Part shown: positions 18,994 through 23,486 of the stretch, one piece after another | Numbering within the stretch: position 1 is the stretch's first letter | Layout: every line of letters begins with the position of its first letter | Origin: Clostridiaceae bacterium | Lineage (GTDB): Bacteria > Bacillota > Clostridia > DSM-8532 | Assembly: GCA_012516065.1 (NCBI GenBank) | Contig: JAAYXD010000005.1 | Location: 1 to 48,554 of the forward strand | Direction of reading: 5' to 3' | Length of the DNA: 48,554 nt | Program-made: the position numbers and the translations under genes | Notes under the pieces: model-generated | The model's input: the letters and a program-made list of their open reading frames with translations, nothing else | Told to the model about the DNA's origin: nothing | The model's database searches: none

Positions 18994-19923
18994 TTAATTG
19001 AATACGGGGCAGATGGTATATTTATAGACTCTCGAGATCGGCATATATGACATTTTTGCCTTTCTTAACCCGCTTTTCCCCATATCTTCCTCACGGTTTA
19101 TATATTTCGTATGCGGAAATGTTCTCGCGACAAATTCCCTGTTGATAACGGCATATATCCCGTGTATATCGGTATTCCCTTTTTCGATGTGAATGACAGC
19201 GGTATCTTCGTTCAACATTTCTCCGACAGTAAAAGCTTCAAACGAACCGTTTACCTTAATCAAAGCCCCTTTCAGCGTAGGAATGCGCTCCCAGTTGTCA
19301 AGCAGTTCAAAACACGCCCATCTCTCGCATTCGGGAGAATCTGTTTCGCAGTTACAGGCTTCGCTTGCTTCATTTTTTTCACACCACTTGTCAAAAATCC
19401 TCTTGCACTCATCAATATGTTCTTTTTTGAGTTCCACATACTCAAAGCCCCCATATTCCCTCATGAATCTGTTTATATGGTTCCGCTTTGAGCTTAGCTT
19501 TTTTCCGGCAAGAGTTATCAGGCTTTCGGTGCTGTAAATGTAGTCCGATATCGCATCAATTTTTTTAATTGTCAGTTTCGCGTCGAGATATTTCTTAAAT
19601 AACGGGACCATGTTCTCTTCAACACGCCCGAAAACAAGTTTCCATCCCCGGCTGTCAAAGTATTCCTTAAGTGTGTAGACAGCATTTACAAAGTCGTCGC
19701 CCCGGAACTCACCGACAGGCAAAGGGCAGAATGCAAACGGCGGAAACCTTTTGGGGTTCGATACCATCAAGAGCATATTGTTTGCTATCGTGAAGCGTGA
19801 GTTATAGCTTCTTCTCCACATAAACATGTTTGAAAAAACCATTTCGGACGCTTGCGAGTTTGTCTTCCTGTAAATCTTGTCAAGCAATTCCATGTCCGAT
19901 ATTTCTATTTCTTTCCACTGCAT
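18994..19923 (-). CDS. DUF2156 (phosphatidylglycerol lysyltransferase C-terminal-like) protein
   Basis: Soluble GNAT-fold protein related to the catalytic domain of MprF-type aminoacyl-phosphatidylglycerol synthases. Recognisable family features: SNMFMWRRSY near residue 31, FPPFAFCPLPVG, the SSKRNHINRFMREYGGFEYVEL segment near residue 145, and a C-terminal GIYAVINREFVARTFPHTKYINREEDMGKSGLRKAKMSY. 309 residues, full length for stand-alone DUF2156 proteins; no membrane segments, unlike MprF. Substrate unknown: it may transfer an amino acid or acyl group. The middle ACNCETDSPECERWACFE contains five Cys within about 20 residues, unusual and possibly metal-binding. Fourth gene of the cheX-trmL-pfk cluster, 44 bp after pfk. 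Confidence 0.85.
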   Translation of the reverse strand: MQWKEIEISDMELLDKIYRKTNSQASEMVFSNMFMWRRSYNSRFTIANNMLLMVSNPKRFPPFAFCPLPVGEFRGDDFVNAVYTLKEYFDSRGWKLVFGRVEENMVPLFKKYLDAKLTIKKIDAISDYIYSTESLITLAGKKLSSKRNHINRFMREYGGFEYVELKKEHIDECKRIFDKWCEKNEASEACNCETDSPECERWACFELLDNWERIPTLKGALIKVNGSFEAFTVGEMLNEDTAVIHIEKGNTDIHGIYAVINREFVARTFPHTKYINREEDMGKSGLRKAKMSYMPISRVYKYTICPVFN

Positions 19924-19967: not shown

Positions 19968-21053
19968 TTAATCACCAAAAGAAACACCCATGTCCCTTGC
20001 TATTCGGACAAGTTCCTCGCTTTCTGATACAACGCGTGCCTTTCCGGCCGCTTCATCAAGCGGAACGGATCTGACCTGCTGATTTTTGATGCAGACCATC
20101 CGGTTATATTCACCTTTTTCAACCATTTTAACAGCCGATGTTCCGAAACGGGTCGCAAGAATCCTGTCATACGGGCATGGCTCTCCGCCGCGCTGCAAAT
20201 ACCCAAGCACGGTTATACGATGTTCTATCGAAGTCAGTTTTTCCAATTCGGTGCCAAGATGACTGCATTCCCCCTCATGGTAAAAACCGGTATTATCTGC
20301 TGTGCTGTTTTTTTCCGCTTCCGATCTTAATCTCGCCCCCGCTCCGGCTGCCGCCACAATTATGCTGAATCCTTTGCCGGCGTTTTTCCTCTCAAAAATA
20401 GCCCTTGCCACTTTATTGATGTCATAAGGGATCTCAGGTATCAGTATTACATCCGCTCCGCCCGCTATGCCGGACTCCAGCGCAATCCAGCCCGATATCC
20501 GACCCATAACTTCCAGAATCATTACCCTATGATTCGATTCCGCGGTGGAATGAAGTTTGTCGATTGCCTCGGTTGCGGTATTGACCGCGGTCATAAACCC
20601 GACTGTTATATCTGTTCCATACACATCGTTTTCGACTGTTTTCGGGATAGCGACAATCGGAATTCCTTTTTCAGCGAGCTTAGCCGCGTAACTTATGGTA
20701 GCACTGCCGCCGATAACCACGAGACAATCTATTTCGTGCATCGCGAGATTTTCCGTTATCCTGTCACTCATATCCGTTCCGGATTCATTTCCTTTTCCCG
20801 GCGGGACAACATTAAAAGGATCGTAACGGTTCGTCGTGCCGAGAATAGTGCCGCCCTTATCCAACAATCCTGAGACATCCGGCAGTTTCAGTTTATTAAA
20901 ACGGTTCTCCACAAGCCCTTTATATCCGTCACGGAATCCAATTACTTCATAACCATAATTATTTATCGCCGTTTTCACAACGGCGCGTATTGCCGCATTT
21001 AAACCGGGACCGTCTCCCCCGCTCGTTAAAACCGCTATCCGTTTTCTTTTCAT
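19968..21053 (-). CDS. 6-phosphofructokinase family protein with altered active-site residues
   Basis: PFK-fold protein of 361 residues. Start ATG 21053 has GGGAGGAGG seven to eight bases upstream; the longer start (21080) overlaps trmL. Matches: TSGGDGPGLNAAIRAVV (phosphate binding), NHRVMILEVMGR (substrate Arg and MGR), LGYLQRGGEPCPYDRILATRFG. Odd points: where E. coli PfkA has GGDGS (Asp103, Mg), this has GGSAT (S117, A118), and where it has TIDND with catalytic Asp127, this has TVEND (E141). PKT before it resembles PPi-dependent or group III enzymes. The magnesium-binding Asp is lost and the base is a Glu, so this may be a slow, specialised or regulatory paralogue. Family assignment is secure, activity is not. 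Confidence 0.88.
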   Translation of the reverse strand: MKRKRIAVLTSGGDGPGLNAAIRAVVKTAINNYGYEVIGFRDGYKGLVENRFNKLKLPDVSGLLDKGGTILGTTNRYDPFNVVPPGKGNESGTDMSDRITENLAMHEIDCLVVIGGSATISYAAKLAEKGIPIVAIPKTVENDVYGTDITVGFMTAVNTATEAIDKLHSTAESNHRVMILEVMGRISGWIALESGIAGGADVILIPEIPYDINKVARAIFERKNAGKGFSIIVAAAGAGARLRSEAEKNSTADNTGFYHEGECSHLGTELEKLTSIEHRITVLGYLQRGGEPCPYDRILATRFGTSAVKMVEKGEYNRMVCIKNQQVRSVPLDEAAGKARVVSESEELVRIARDMGVSFGD

Positions 21054-21076
21054 GGCAACCTCCTCCCTTCCGCTTA

Positions 21077-21565
21077 TCAATTTTCTTTTATAAATCCTCT
21101 TTTTTGAAAATTAACAAACCCCTTCTGGCGGAAAAACTCATAAGTTACAATCGCAACAGAATTTGAAAGGTTTAACGATCGAATGGATTCAAGCATCGGA
21201 ATTCTTATGCAGTGCTCATAATTCTCCTTAAGCAAACTTTCGGGCAGTCCCGCAGTTTCTTTTCCAAAAACAAAAAAGCATTCGTCAGGATAAGCAATAT
21301 CCGAATAAACATATTTTGCCTTTGTTGACACAAAATAAAACGGGACCCCGGGAAACCCGCTCTTCAATGAATCAAAATTTTTGTAATAATATATCCGGAC
21401 CTTGTGCCAGTAATCAAGACCGGCACGCTTTAAATATTTGTCTGAAACAGAAAAGCCAAGAGGCTCTACAAGATGAAGAACTGCCCCTGTGGCAGCACAC
21501 GTTCGGGCTATATTACCGGTGTTCTGCGGTATTTCAGGTTCAACTAGCACGATATTCAACTGCAT
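21077..21565 (-). CDS. trmL: tRNA (cytidine/uridine-34 2'-O)-methyltransferase
   Basis: SPOUT-fold enzyme that methylates the wobble ribose of tRNA-Leu isoacceptors. Diagnostic segments: LNIVLVEPEIPQNTGNIARTCAATGA at the N-terminus, RAGLDYWHKV, FVFGKETAGLPESLL and the knot motif RIPMLESIRSLNLSNSVAIVTYE. 162 residues, typical. It lies between cheX (31 bp upstream) and pfk (23 bp downstream). Confidence 0.95.
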   Translation of the reverse strand: MQLNIVLVEPEIPQNTGNIARTCAATGAVLHLVEPLGFSVSDKYLKRAGLDYWHKVRIYYYKNFDSLKSGFPGVPFYFVSTKAKYVYSDIAYPDECFFVFGKETAGLPESLLKENYEHCIRIPMLESIRSLNLSNSVAIVTYEFFRQKGFVNFQKRGFIKEN

Positions 21566-21596: not shown

Positions 21597-22064
21597 TTAT
21601 TCGTTTTCCAATGAAATATCAATGGTTATTTTCCCGTTATCGCCCAGATTCAGCGGGACGCATATAGTCTTCATATTTGTCTGCGAAACCGTAATTTTCT
21701 CACCCATAAGCAGTGACGGGGGAGTTATTTCAATGCCTATCCCTTTTGTGAACAATATGGTAGCAGTATTCCCCATAATCATGTTTCCCAGTTCTGAAAT
21801 TGCGCTTTTCGGTATATCATCGAATACCTGCACCGGCATGCCTCCCATCATTATTGACGCAATCGACATTGCCGTTTCAATATTCAACGACATTATTACC
21901 TGCCCGCGCAGTTTGCCTGTCAAACCAACTATTACTGCAACAGAATCGCTTGGGTACGGTGAATTCTTAAGATAAACTTTCCCAAGGGTCGGTTTAATTC
22001 CTGTCACCATTTGAAATACCTGCTGGCTGGCTTCAATAAACGGGTTTATGTATTCTACGTTCAT
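21597..22064 (-). CDS. cheX: CheX-family CheY-P phosphatase
   Basis: Removes phosphate from CheY-P to end chemotaxis signals in bacteria lacking CheZ. The 155-residue protein starts MNVEYINPFIEASQQVFQMVTG, the normal CheX N-terminus, and carries the catalytic ExxN helix in SAISELGNMIMGN. The C-terminal beta region is present. Here it is a stand-alone gene at the head of a housekeeping cluster and not inside a che operon; a chemoreceptor gene lies about 8 kb away. The intergenic region upstream has a large inverted repeat. Confidence 0.92.
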   Translation of the reverse strand: MNVEYINPFIEASQQVFQMVTGIKPTLGKVYLKNSPYPSDSVAVIVGLTGKLRGQVIMSLNIETAMSIASIMMGGMPVQVFDDIPKSAISELGNMIMGNTATILFTKGIGIEITPPSLLMGEKITVSQTNMKTICVPLNLGDNGKITIDISLENE

Positions 22065-22325: not shown

Positions 22326-23486
22326 TTATCGAAATCCTGAAAACCTTCTATCCGTCATTAACCTTGAAATAAAACCCCTGCGTATATCAACAGCTTTGTA
22401 ATCGCACAATTCATGGCAGCAAAAACAACCGATGCACTTATCATAATCAATTGACGGAATATTCCGGTCCTCAAAAACAAATGCCGAAGCAGGGCAAATT
22501 TTCACACAGTTTCCGCAGCGTACGCATTTTTCCGCGGATATTACGGGTTTCGGCCTTGACTGCTTTTTTAACAGGTTTAATAAGCCTCTTTTTAAAATAT
22601 TTTGACGTTTGGCGCCGTACAAAGCCGGGATGTAAAAATCATTGCATATAACACATTCAATATTCTCACCGATTATATGAATATTATTATCATCCACAAG
22701 GCAGCGTTTTTTTGCGTTTCTCAAGACCGGGACATTATCGGGCGAAAGCCTGATAATTCTCGCCGCGGCAACATCAAGCGCAAAGCCGCTGGCAGATGCG
22801 AGCAGCAGCCCGATATGCTTCGGCGTTCCCGCGCTCGGCCCGTACCCTTCCATGCCTTCAATCGCGTCCATAACGTTTATTGCCGGTTTCGTGCCGAGGT
22901 AAATATCAATCAGACTGTCCGCAAAGTCGTTGTAGTCCGGCATCCTCAGGTGCAAATCGGCTTTCGCCGTGCCCGCGATGGCTCCGAACATATTTTTTAC
23001 CGCCCCCGTATATACCATCATCGCATGAGTTTTCAGCTTCGGTATATTGACAATAACATCTGCATCGGCAAGCGGTTTCAGTATTTCGAAGCTTTTAACA
23101 TACTTTGACTCCGGGTTGTTAATCTTTGTAACTCTTAAATCATAGTTCAGTATGGCTCCGGTTTCATCGGCCACTTTCTCAATCCCGGTCGCCCTGTAGA
23201 CATAACGGAGCATTGACCTGCTGTACGGTCCTCCCGGGCTTTCCGCTATTATTACGTTTCCGCCCGCTTTCTGAATCTGCGATATAATCGCCTTAACAAC
23301 CGCAGGATGGGTTGTAGCAGCCTCTTCAGGCTTCTTATATCTTAAAAGATTCGGCTTTACCGCCACCCTGTCGCCGGGTTTTATAAAAGCTTTCCAGCCT
23401 CCAAGGTTGCCGATCAGCTTTTCCACGCAGTTATATACATTGCCATATTCATAATTTTCACAGCGTTCTATCGATACCTTATCCAT
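22326..23486 (-). CDS. DUF362 protein with C-terminal 2[4Fe-4S] ferredoxin domain
   Basis: 386-residue iron-sulfur protein of unknown function. The DUF362 domain fills residues ~1-300 (VAVKPNLLRYKKPEEAATTHPAVVKAII, AESPGGPYSRSMLRYVYRATGIEKVA, NIPKLKTHAMMVYTGAVKNMFGAIAG). Two ferredoxin clusters follow: CVRCGNCVKICPASAF and CIGCFCCHELCDYKAV. No signal peptide or Tat motif, so cytoplasmic. Relatives are common in strict anaerobes and are thought to be redox or cofactor-binding proteins; no partner enzyme is encoded next to it. ATG 23486 lacks a strong ribosome binding site (AGAGGCATGAA upstream). No clear terminator at its 3' end. Confidence 0.88.
   Translation of the reverse strand: MDKVSIERCENYEYGNVYNCVEKLIGNLGGWKAFIKPGDRVAVKPNLLRYKKPEEAATTHPAVVKAIISQIQKAGGNVIIAESPGGPYSRSMLRYVYRATGIEKVADETGAILNYDLRVTKINNPESKYVKSFEILKPLADADVIVNIPKLKTHAMMVYTGAVKNMFGAIAGTAKADLHLRMPDYNDFADSLIDIYLGTKPAINVMDAIEGMEGYGPSAGTPKHIGLLLASASGFALDVAAARIIRLSPDNVPVLRNAKKRCLVDDNNIHIIGENIECVICNDFYIPALYGAKRQNILKRGLLNLLKKQSRPKPVISAEKCVRCGNCVKICPASAFVFEDRNIPSIDYDKCIGCFCCHELCDYKAVDIRRGFISRLMTDRRFSGFR

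Follow-up and report, generated by a model that had tools for sequence, protein, structure and literature searches.

Does a phosphofructokinase (PFK) gene whose catalytic residues have been replaced still encode a working kinase, or does its product serve another purpose? This question was raised by a minus-strand open reading frame in the window, the whole stretch of 48,554 nucleotides that we analysed. We confirmed the coordinates of the frame, which starts with an ATG at 21053 and encodes 361 amino acids. The original prediction had read GGSAT (S117, A118) and TVEND (E141) at the sites of two PFK motifs, and had described a strong ribosome-binding site. Reading and alignment bore out the frame and both motifs, and the strong ribosome-binding site is in place (Table 1).

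The window protein belongs to the PFK superfamily, scoring 340.6 bits against Pfam PF00365 (gathering score 30.9). It also scored above the curated cut-off of NCBIfam PRK03202 (NF002872, named ATP-dependent 6-phosphofructokinase; 383.7 bits, cut-off 253), a match that gives a subfamily name and says nothing on ATP use. Against TIGR02483 (PFK_mixed), it reached 397.2 bits, below the curated cut-off of 430.55. The same cut-off was failed by all four window-family members tested (the window protein, L008 with 417.2, L018 with 397.0 and L022 with 382.3 bits) and passed by all four near relatives tested (L120, L121, L123 and L026; 464.6-478.7 bits). The AlphaFold2 model (mean pLDDT 85.2, pTM 0.84; the five models span 64.0 to 85.2) has the PFK fold, and its closest PDB structure is 6pfk, with a TM-score of 0.83 by query and 0.94 by target. 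The search of solved structures returned none nearer than ordinary PFKs, and the same search with a relative carrying Gly at position 103 likewise returned only these. In plasmid records, all matches to the window protein were below 60% identity.

Table 1 Features of the locus, in window coordinates.
Feature	Position	Strand	Evidence or remark
LPG_synthase_C domain protein, downstream conserved neighbour	18994..19923	-	Profile and locus comparison
Degenerate mixed-type (clade-III-like) phosphofructokinase paralogue	19968..21053, stop included	-	PF00365; AlphaFold model
Tyr285 codon	20199..20201	-	At place of His249 (F6P ligand); Tyr in 27/27 family orthologues
Ala236 codon	20346..20348	-	At place of Glu222 (F6P ligand)
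Glu141 codon	20631..20633	-	At place of Asp127 (general base)
Ala118 codon	20700..20702	-	At place of Gly104 (ATP alpha-phosphate)
Ser117 codon	20703..20705	-	At place of Asp103 (alignment)
Ribosome-binding site GGGAGGAGG	21059..21067	-	Five bases 5' of the pfk paralogue ATG
SpoU-family methylase (trmL-like), upstream neighbour	21077..21565	-	23 bases lie between its stop and the pfk ATG
CheX-like chemotaxis phosphatase, conserved neighbour	21597..22064	-	Profile and locus comparison
DUF362 and 4Fe-4S ferredoxin protein	22326..23486	-	Beyond CheX

To describe the active site we use E. coli PFK numbering, transferred through an alignment of the window protein to the G. stearothermophilus enzyme. 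PMC12203962 describes Asp127 as the general base and assigns GGDG to ATP enzymes and GGDD to PPi enzymes; the functions of positions 104, 127, 129, 187 and 249 are described in PMC10339645. The catalytic ATP-PFK motif (GGDG with D103 and Gly104, together with D127) is absent from the window protein, which has S117, A118 and E141 there, and so is the PPi-PFK motif (GGDD with Asp at 104, and PKTIDxD), with Ala at 104 and PKTVEND. D129 is retained. The claim that the fructose-6-phosphate residues remain holds for T125, R162, M169, G170, R171, R243 and R252, but fails at E222 and H249, which are Ala236 and Tyr285. Both other genomes of the window genus have Leu at R171.

We compared 32 genomes of the window family, by which we mean the bacterial family of the window genome, related to Thermoclostridium. 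With the window protein as query (E <= 1e-75), orthologues were found in 29 of the 32, and in 22 of the 24 good ones; none of the 29 matches has an internal stop, and one carrier is Thermoclostridium caenicola DSM 19027 (L040). One further genome of the same order (G025) gave no match at this threshold. The paralogue is cleanly lost from G045, where the LPG_synthase_C gene directly adjoins the trmL-like gene (L189, G045:C16). Two other genomes, G009 and G011, have neither the paralogue nor a good trmL match, so its absence there may reflect an assembly gap. Setting aside two partial orthologues at contig ends, L038 (GGGNT, KTIE) and L039, left 27 full-length sequences.

Across these 27, the catalytic positions vary widely. 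Position 103 takes seven residue types (D 9, I 7, T 6, N 2, S 1, G 1, Y 1), position 104 four (N 13, A 6, S 4, T 4, and Gly in none), position 125 three (T 16, N 6, A 5), position 171 five and position 222 three (E 22, A 4, D 1). Position 127 is acidic throughout (E 16, D 11) and position 249 is Tyr in every sequence. Each of positions 103, 104, 125, 127, 169, 171 and 222 differs among species of the window family. D103 and D127 never occur together: nine orthologues have D103 alone, 11 have D127 alone and seven have neither. G11, D129, R162, G170 and R252 are invariant, and R243 is kept in most. The Thermoclostridium-like genus g3 retains D103, T125 and R171, with E222 in three of its four sequences; the Thermoclostridium orthologue L008 reads GGDAT/TIEND.

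For comparison, we assembled 152 mixed-type relatives from many phyla. They comprise 79 named loci from the best 80 of 588 matches (the 80th being T. caenicola, already among the 27), 13 loci, and 60 of 109 further matches, chosen by hand over the list, best scores first, from a search at E <= 1e-85 that covered 391 genomes of the class. The set excludes the G. stearothermophilus reference and the window genome's own canonical PFK, and two degenerate proteins from other families, L029 and L032, count towards neither the 27 family orthologues nor these relatives. T125, D127, D129, M169, G170, E222, R243 and R252 are each present in 152/152, and G104 in 150/152. Position 249 is H in 132 and Y in 20; position 103 is D in 104, N in 34, G in 11 and E in three. 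No large group of ordinary, active PFKs carrying GGSAT/TVEND turned up among the sequences compared, and position 127 was Asp in every one of the 152 outside the window family.

The statement that the first position is Asp or Glu in known enzymes does not extend to all mixed-type proteins, as 45 of the 152 relatives have Asn or Gly there. These 45 keep T125, D127 and E222, and we rejected loss of D103 alone as a sign of a dead enzyme: by itself, it is not diagnostic. The Asn/Gly103 proteins form a mixed-type subfamily spread over several phyla, in which N or G at 103 always accompanies His or Asn at 171 (45/45), while D or E at 103 always accompanies Arg (107/107). The subfamily includes L030, L031, L069, L090, L091, L093, L097, L098, L100, L101, L105, L106, L108, L110, L113, L114 and L117-L119, plus further rows of the 152, and two of its members also score below the TIGR02483 cut-off. 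This pairing of residues may be the mark of another way of handling the donor or the metal. Two proteins of the small-genome family f58, L232 (G232) and L243 (G402), have Ser at G104 and Tyr at H249 and keep all catalytic acids. Each is the single PF00365 match of its genome, and we therefore also rejected loss of G104 or H249 alone as a mark of inactivity.

The surroundings of the gene are conserved. We compared 14 family loci with the window: in all 14 pfk adjoins the LPG_synthase_C gene, and in 13 the trmL-like gene, with CheX following in 12; of the exceptions, L133 ends too soon to show the trmL-like gene and L142 is without CheX. Six near loci from five other families have a trmL-like gene near pfk in 6/6, CheX in 5/6 and LPG_synthase_C in 4/6, and their pfk retains GGDGT/TIDND. 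The predicted layout with trmL and cheX was thus recovered in the family and in the near loci, as a SpoU-family (trmL-like) methylase gene and CheX. A gene between trmL-like and pfk in L143 and L148, considered as a clue to function, encodes a peptidase (Pfam M20 in L143) and was uninformative. The DUF362 and ferredoxin protein occupies the same place in 10 of the 14 family loci and two of the six near loci.

In a tree built without the catalytic columns, which omits L029 and L032, the 27 family orthologues form one clade (100/99) and 12 near relatives another (100/96). Changes between D and not-D occurred at least two times at position 103 and at least three times at position 127. In a tree that includes no published clade-III reference, the window protein falls with near relatives that score above the PFK_mixed cut-off and have the same locus. 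We rejected horizontal replacement of the gene, since its locus and clade are those of near families whose residues are intact. Two other clostridial families have degenerate mixed-type PFKs of their own, L029 (G027), with GNAET/SVEND, and L032 (G037), with GGDTT and a broken TIDND loop. These are possibly independent losses; in an earlier tree, which warns that their long branches meet, they grouped beside the window family.

We then asked where in the protein the changes fall. Among 53 columns with one residue in at least 98% of the 152 relatives, we called a column broken if it was changed in three or more of the 27. Broken columns make up 6/11 in the active site versus 2/42 elsewhere (Fisher p=0.0005; the alignment rows are related to each other, and p-values here and below are guides only). 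In the 12 near relatives, 16/21 active-site columns are invariant versus 124/328 of the remaining columns (p=0.0008), and in the window family 6/21 versus 84/328 (p=0.80). The effector pocket behaves differently from the rest of the family alignment, with 9/12 columns invariant (p=0.0006 versus the rest). Near relatives have 8/12 (p=0.07), about the same, so the pocket has been retained without coming under new constraint; a subunit interface could account for its invariance. In 500 random sets of 27 sequences drawn from the 152, nine to 12 active-site columns were invariant, and invariant columns overall averaged 52.9 versus 99 (of 361) in the family's 27. With active-site columns only average in the family, and the pocket and overall invariance kept, constraint has been lifted from the active site, whereas the fold remains under it. 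Ten columns are close to fixation in the family for a residue rare in relatives; Tyr249 is one of them, and two more correspond to positions 71 and 106, next to the nucleotide loop.

The paralogue is under purifying selection, relaxed in the window genus. Its dN/dS (YN00) over five pairs was 0.040-0.154. Within the window genus, we obtained 0.154, 0.133 and 0.088 for the paralogue, 0.048, 0.050 and 0.044 for the canonical PFK, and 0.045, 0.055 and 0.061 for the PPi type. The corresponding values were 0.075, 0.050 and 0.087 for a pair from genus g7, and 0.040, 0.040 and 0.043 for a pair from genus g2. Family paralogues evolve faster than near relatives (mean path 0.94 versus 0.54). The view that the gene does not look decayed agrees with its presence, free of internal stops, in 29 of 32 genomes, with dN/dS far below 1 and with the retained synteny. 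Catalytic residues are thus absent across orthologues that are under purifying selection, as is characteristic of a pseudoenzyme, and from these residues we infer that the window-family paralogue has lost catalysis.

The genome encodes two other PFKs. A search for the second, canonical pfk that had been suggested as a check recovered a 323-amino-acid ATP-type PFK (GGDGS, PGTIDND) on contig C142 of the window genome, plus a 416-amino-acid PPi-type PFK (GGNDS, PKTIDND) on contig C59. Matches of canonical type, as read from length and score, occur in 26 of the 29 paralogue carriers, so glycolysis should not need the paralogue; the three carriers without one are 86 to 91% complete genomes. The GGDGS/TIDND motif was checked in ten canonical-type matches, the window genome's included. 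Genus g2 has an apparent fourth PFK type, seen as open frames of 388-428 amino acids (G003:C80, G018:C69, G042:C94, G043:C56 and G044:C208).

Taken together, our best reading is that the paralogue is probably a family-wide pseudo-PFK with a sensing or regulatory role. A mixed-type, clade-III-like PFK would have been freed of constraint on phosphoryl transfer while keeping the PFK fold and effector pocket. Of the arginines that hold the sugar 6-phosphate, R162 and R252 are kept throughout and R243 in most sequences; such a protein would most likely bind a sugar phosphate, an effector resembling a nucleotide or PEP, or both. By analogy with eukaryotic PFK halves and subunits, it might act as a sensor or regulatory partner, plausibly by entering oligomers with one of the cell's active PFKs; its ligand, partner and regulatory role are guesses. 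Of the two readings first offered, a regulatory protein fits better than an enzyme with another donor or substrate, because conservation in the active site does not exceed that of the remaining columns, whereas conservation in the pocket does. Had the protein taken on a new activity, its active site should have become fixed in a new form, and the variable site counts against this.

Some chemistry is nonetheless conceivable from the pattern of residues, with position 127 acidic in 27/27 and G11, D129, R162, G170 and R252 invariant. The paralogue could be a kinase that still works through an altered active site, using Glu127 as base, holding the metal through Asp129 and others, and acting on another sugar phosphate or donor. 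Sedoheptulose 7-phosphate (S7P) is a candidate because C. stercorarium is without a known transaldolase, and an S7P role has been proposed for one of its three Pfk in PMC4102724. R162 and R252 are kept in all 27, the ten family-specific columns could mean a re-shaped site, and H249Y, the fixed Tyr249 of the family, is noted in S7P-using PPi-PFKs in PMC10339645. However, positions 103, 104, 125, 171 and 222 have no fixed replacement, and PPi-PFK of related clostridia already handles S7P (PMC7029132 and PMC10339645), serving the pentose route (PMC7029132). We consider such a kinase unlikely. A redundant paralogue on its way out, its ancestral enzyme dispensable and erosion proceeding from the active site outwards, is less likely still. 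It would accommodate the clean loss in G045, the faster evolution, a window-genus dN/dS two to three times that of the ATP-type PFK (0.088-0.154 versus 0.044-0.050) and the degenerate copies in two other families; it has to contend with 29 matches free of internal stops, dN/dS far below 1, 99/361 columns invariant among 27 sequences and, if the third Pfk of C. stercorarium is the window-type gene, the peptides reported for all three in PMC4102724. A sequencing or assembly artefact might be suspected in a 328-contig assembly, but like substitutions occur in 27 open full-length orthologues from 27 genomes, T. caenicola DSM 19027 among them, and we rejected an artefact or frameshift as having next to no chance of being true.

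Returning to the pseudo-PFK, a more specific form of it is that the stand-alone protein detects an effector by means of the retained pocket and controls the cell's active ATP- or PPi-PFK in mixed oligomers, as a prokaryotic counterpart of the degenerate eukaryotic halves and subunits. We offer this form tentatively, as a possibility that is more apt to be wrong than right. Eukaryotes are known to have degenerate PFK domains with regulatory roles. If the paralogue regulates glycolysis, it would be a missing control element in clostridia whose chemistry combines ATP, GTP and PPi, it would bear on the engineering of cellulolytic clostridia, and metabolic models in which the gene counts as an active PFK would be in error. 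The window family also presents a graded series of catalytic losses, on which one could test what a PFK keeps once catalysis goes.

Among the top-ranked titles of the open-access literature, with subscription papers mostly outside it, we found no report of a separate bacterial pseudo-PFK, and searches by motif, by Asp127 mutants and by Thermoclostridium stercorarium with phosphofructokinase found no work on the window paralogue. The nearest known group is PFK_mixed (TIGR02483, mixed-substrate group III), with which the window protein shares fold, length and Lys124 in the PKT loop, and whose near clostridial members have a locus in common with the window gene; unlike them, it falls below the cut-off and has lost D103, G104, D127 and E222. 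A close studied case is in the related clostridium Pseudoclostridium thermosuccinogenes, which has three PFKs, and whose clade-III CDQ83_10650 gave no activity with ATP, GTP or PPi according to PMC6543838. Like the window gene, CDQ83_10650 is a third PFK alongside an ATP/GTP enzyme and a PPi enzyme; unlike the window protein, it has Gly117 and Lys137 as published. Genome G245 has three PFK matches and Gly117/Lys137, a numbering shared by the five other near relatives checked. If the G245 protein is CDQ83_10650, ordinary PFK activity may have been lost before the residues changed, with poor expression in the assay as an alternative cause of that negative result. In C. stercorarium, three Pfk are annotated, each with some peptide coverage (PMC4102724). 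Further afield, catalysis has been lost from the C-terminal halves of PFKs in yeast and mammals, which contribute to stability and to regulation or allostery, as PMC12203962 describes; these halves are fused to an active half, whereas the window protein is a separate bacterial gene product. Plant PFP alpha, a regulatory subunit according to PMC3653104, is a separate regulatory homologue of its catalytic subunit, and by that description the window protein may resemble it.
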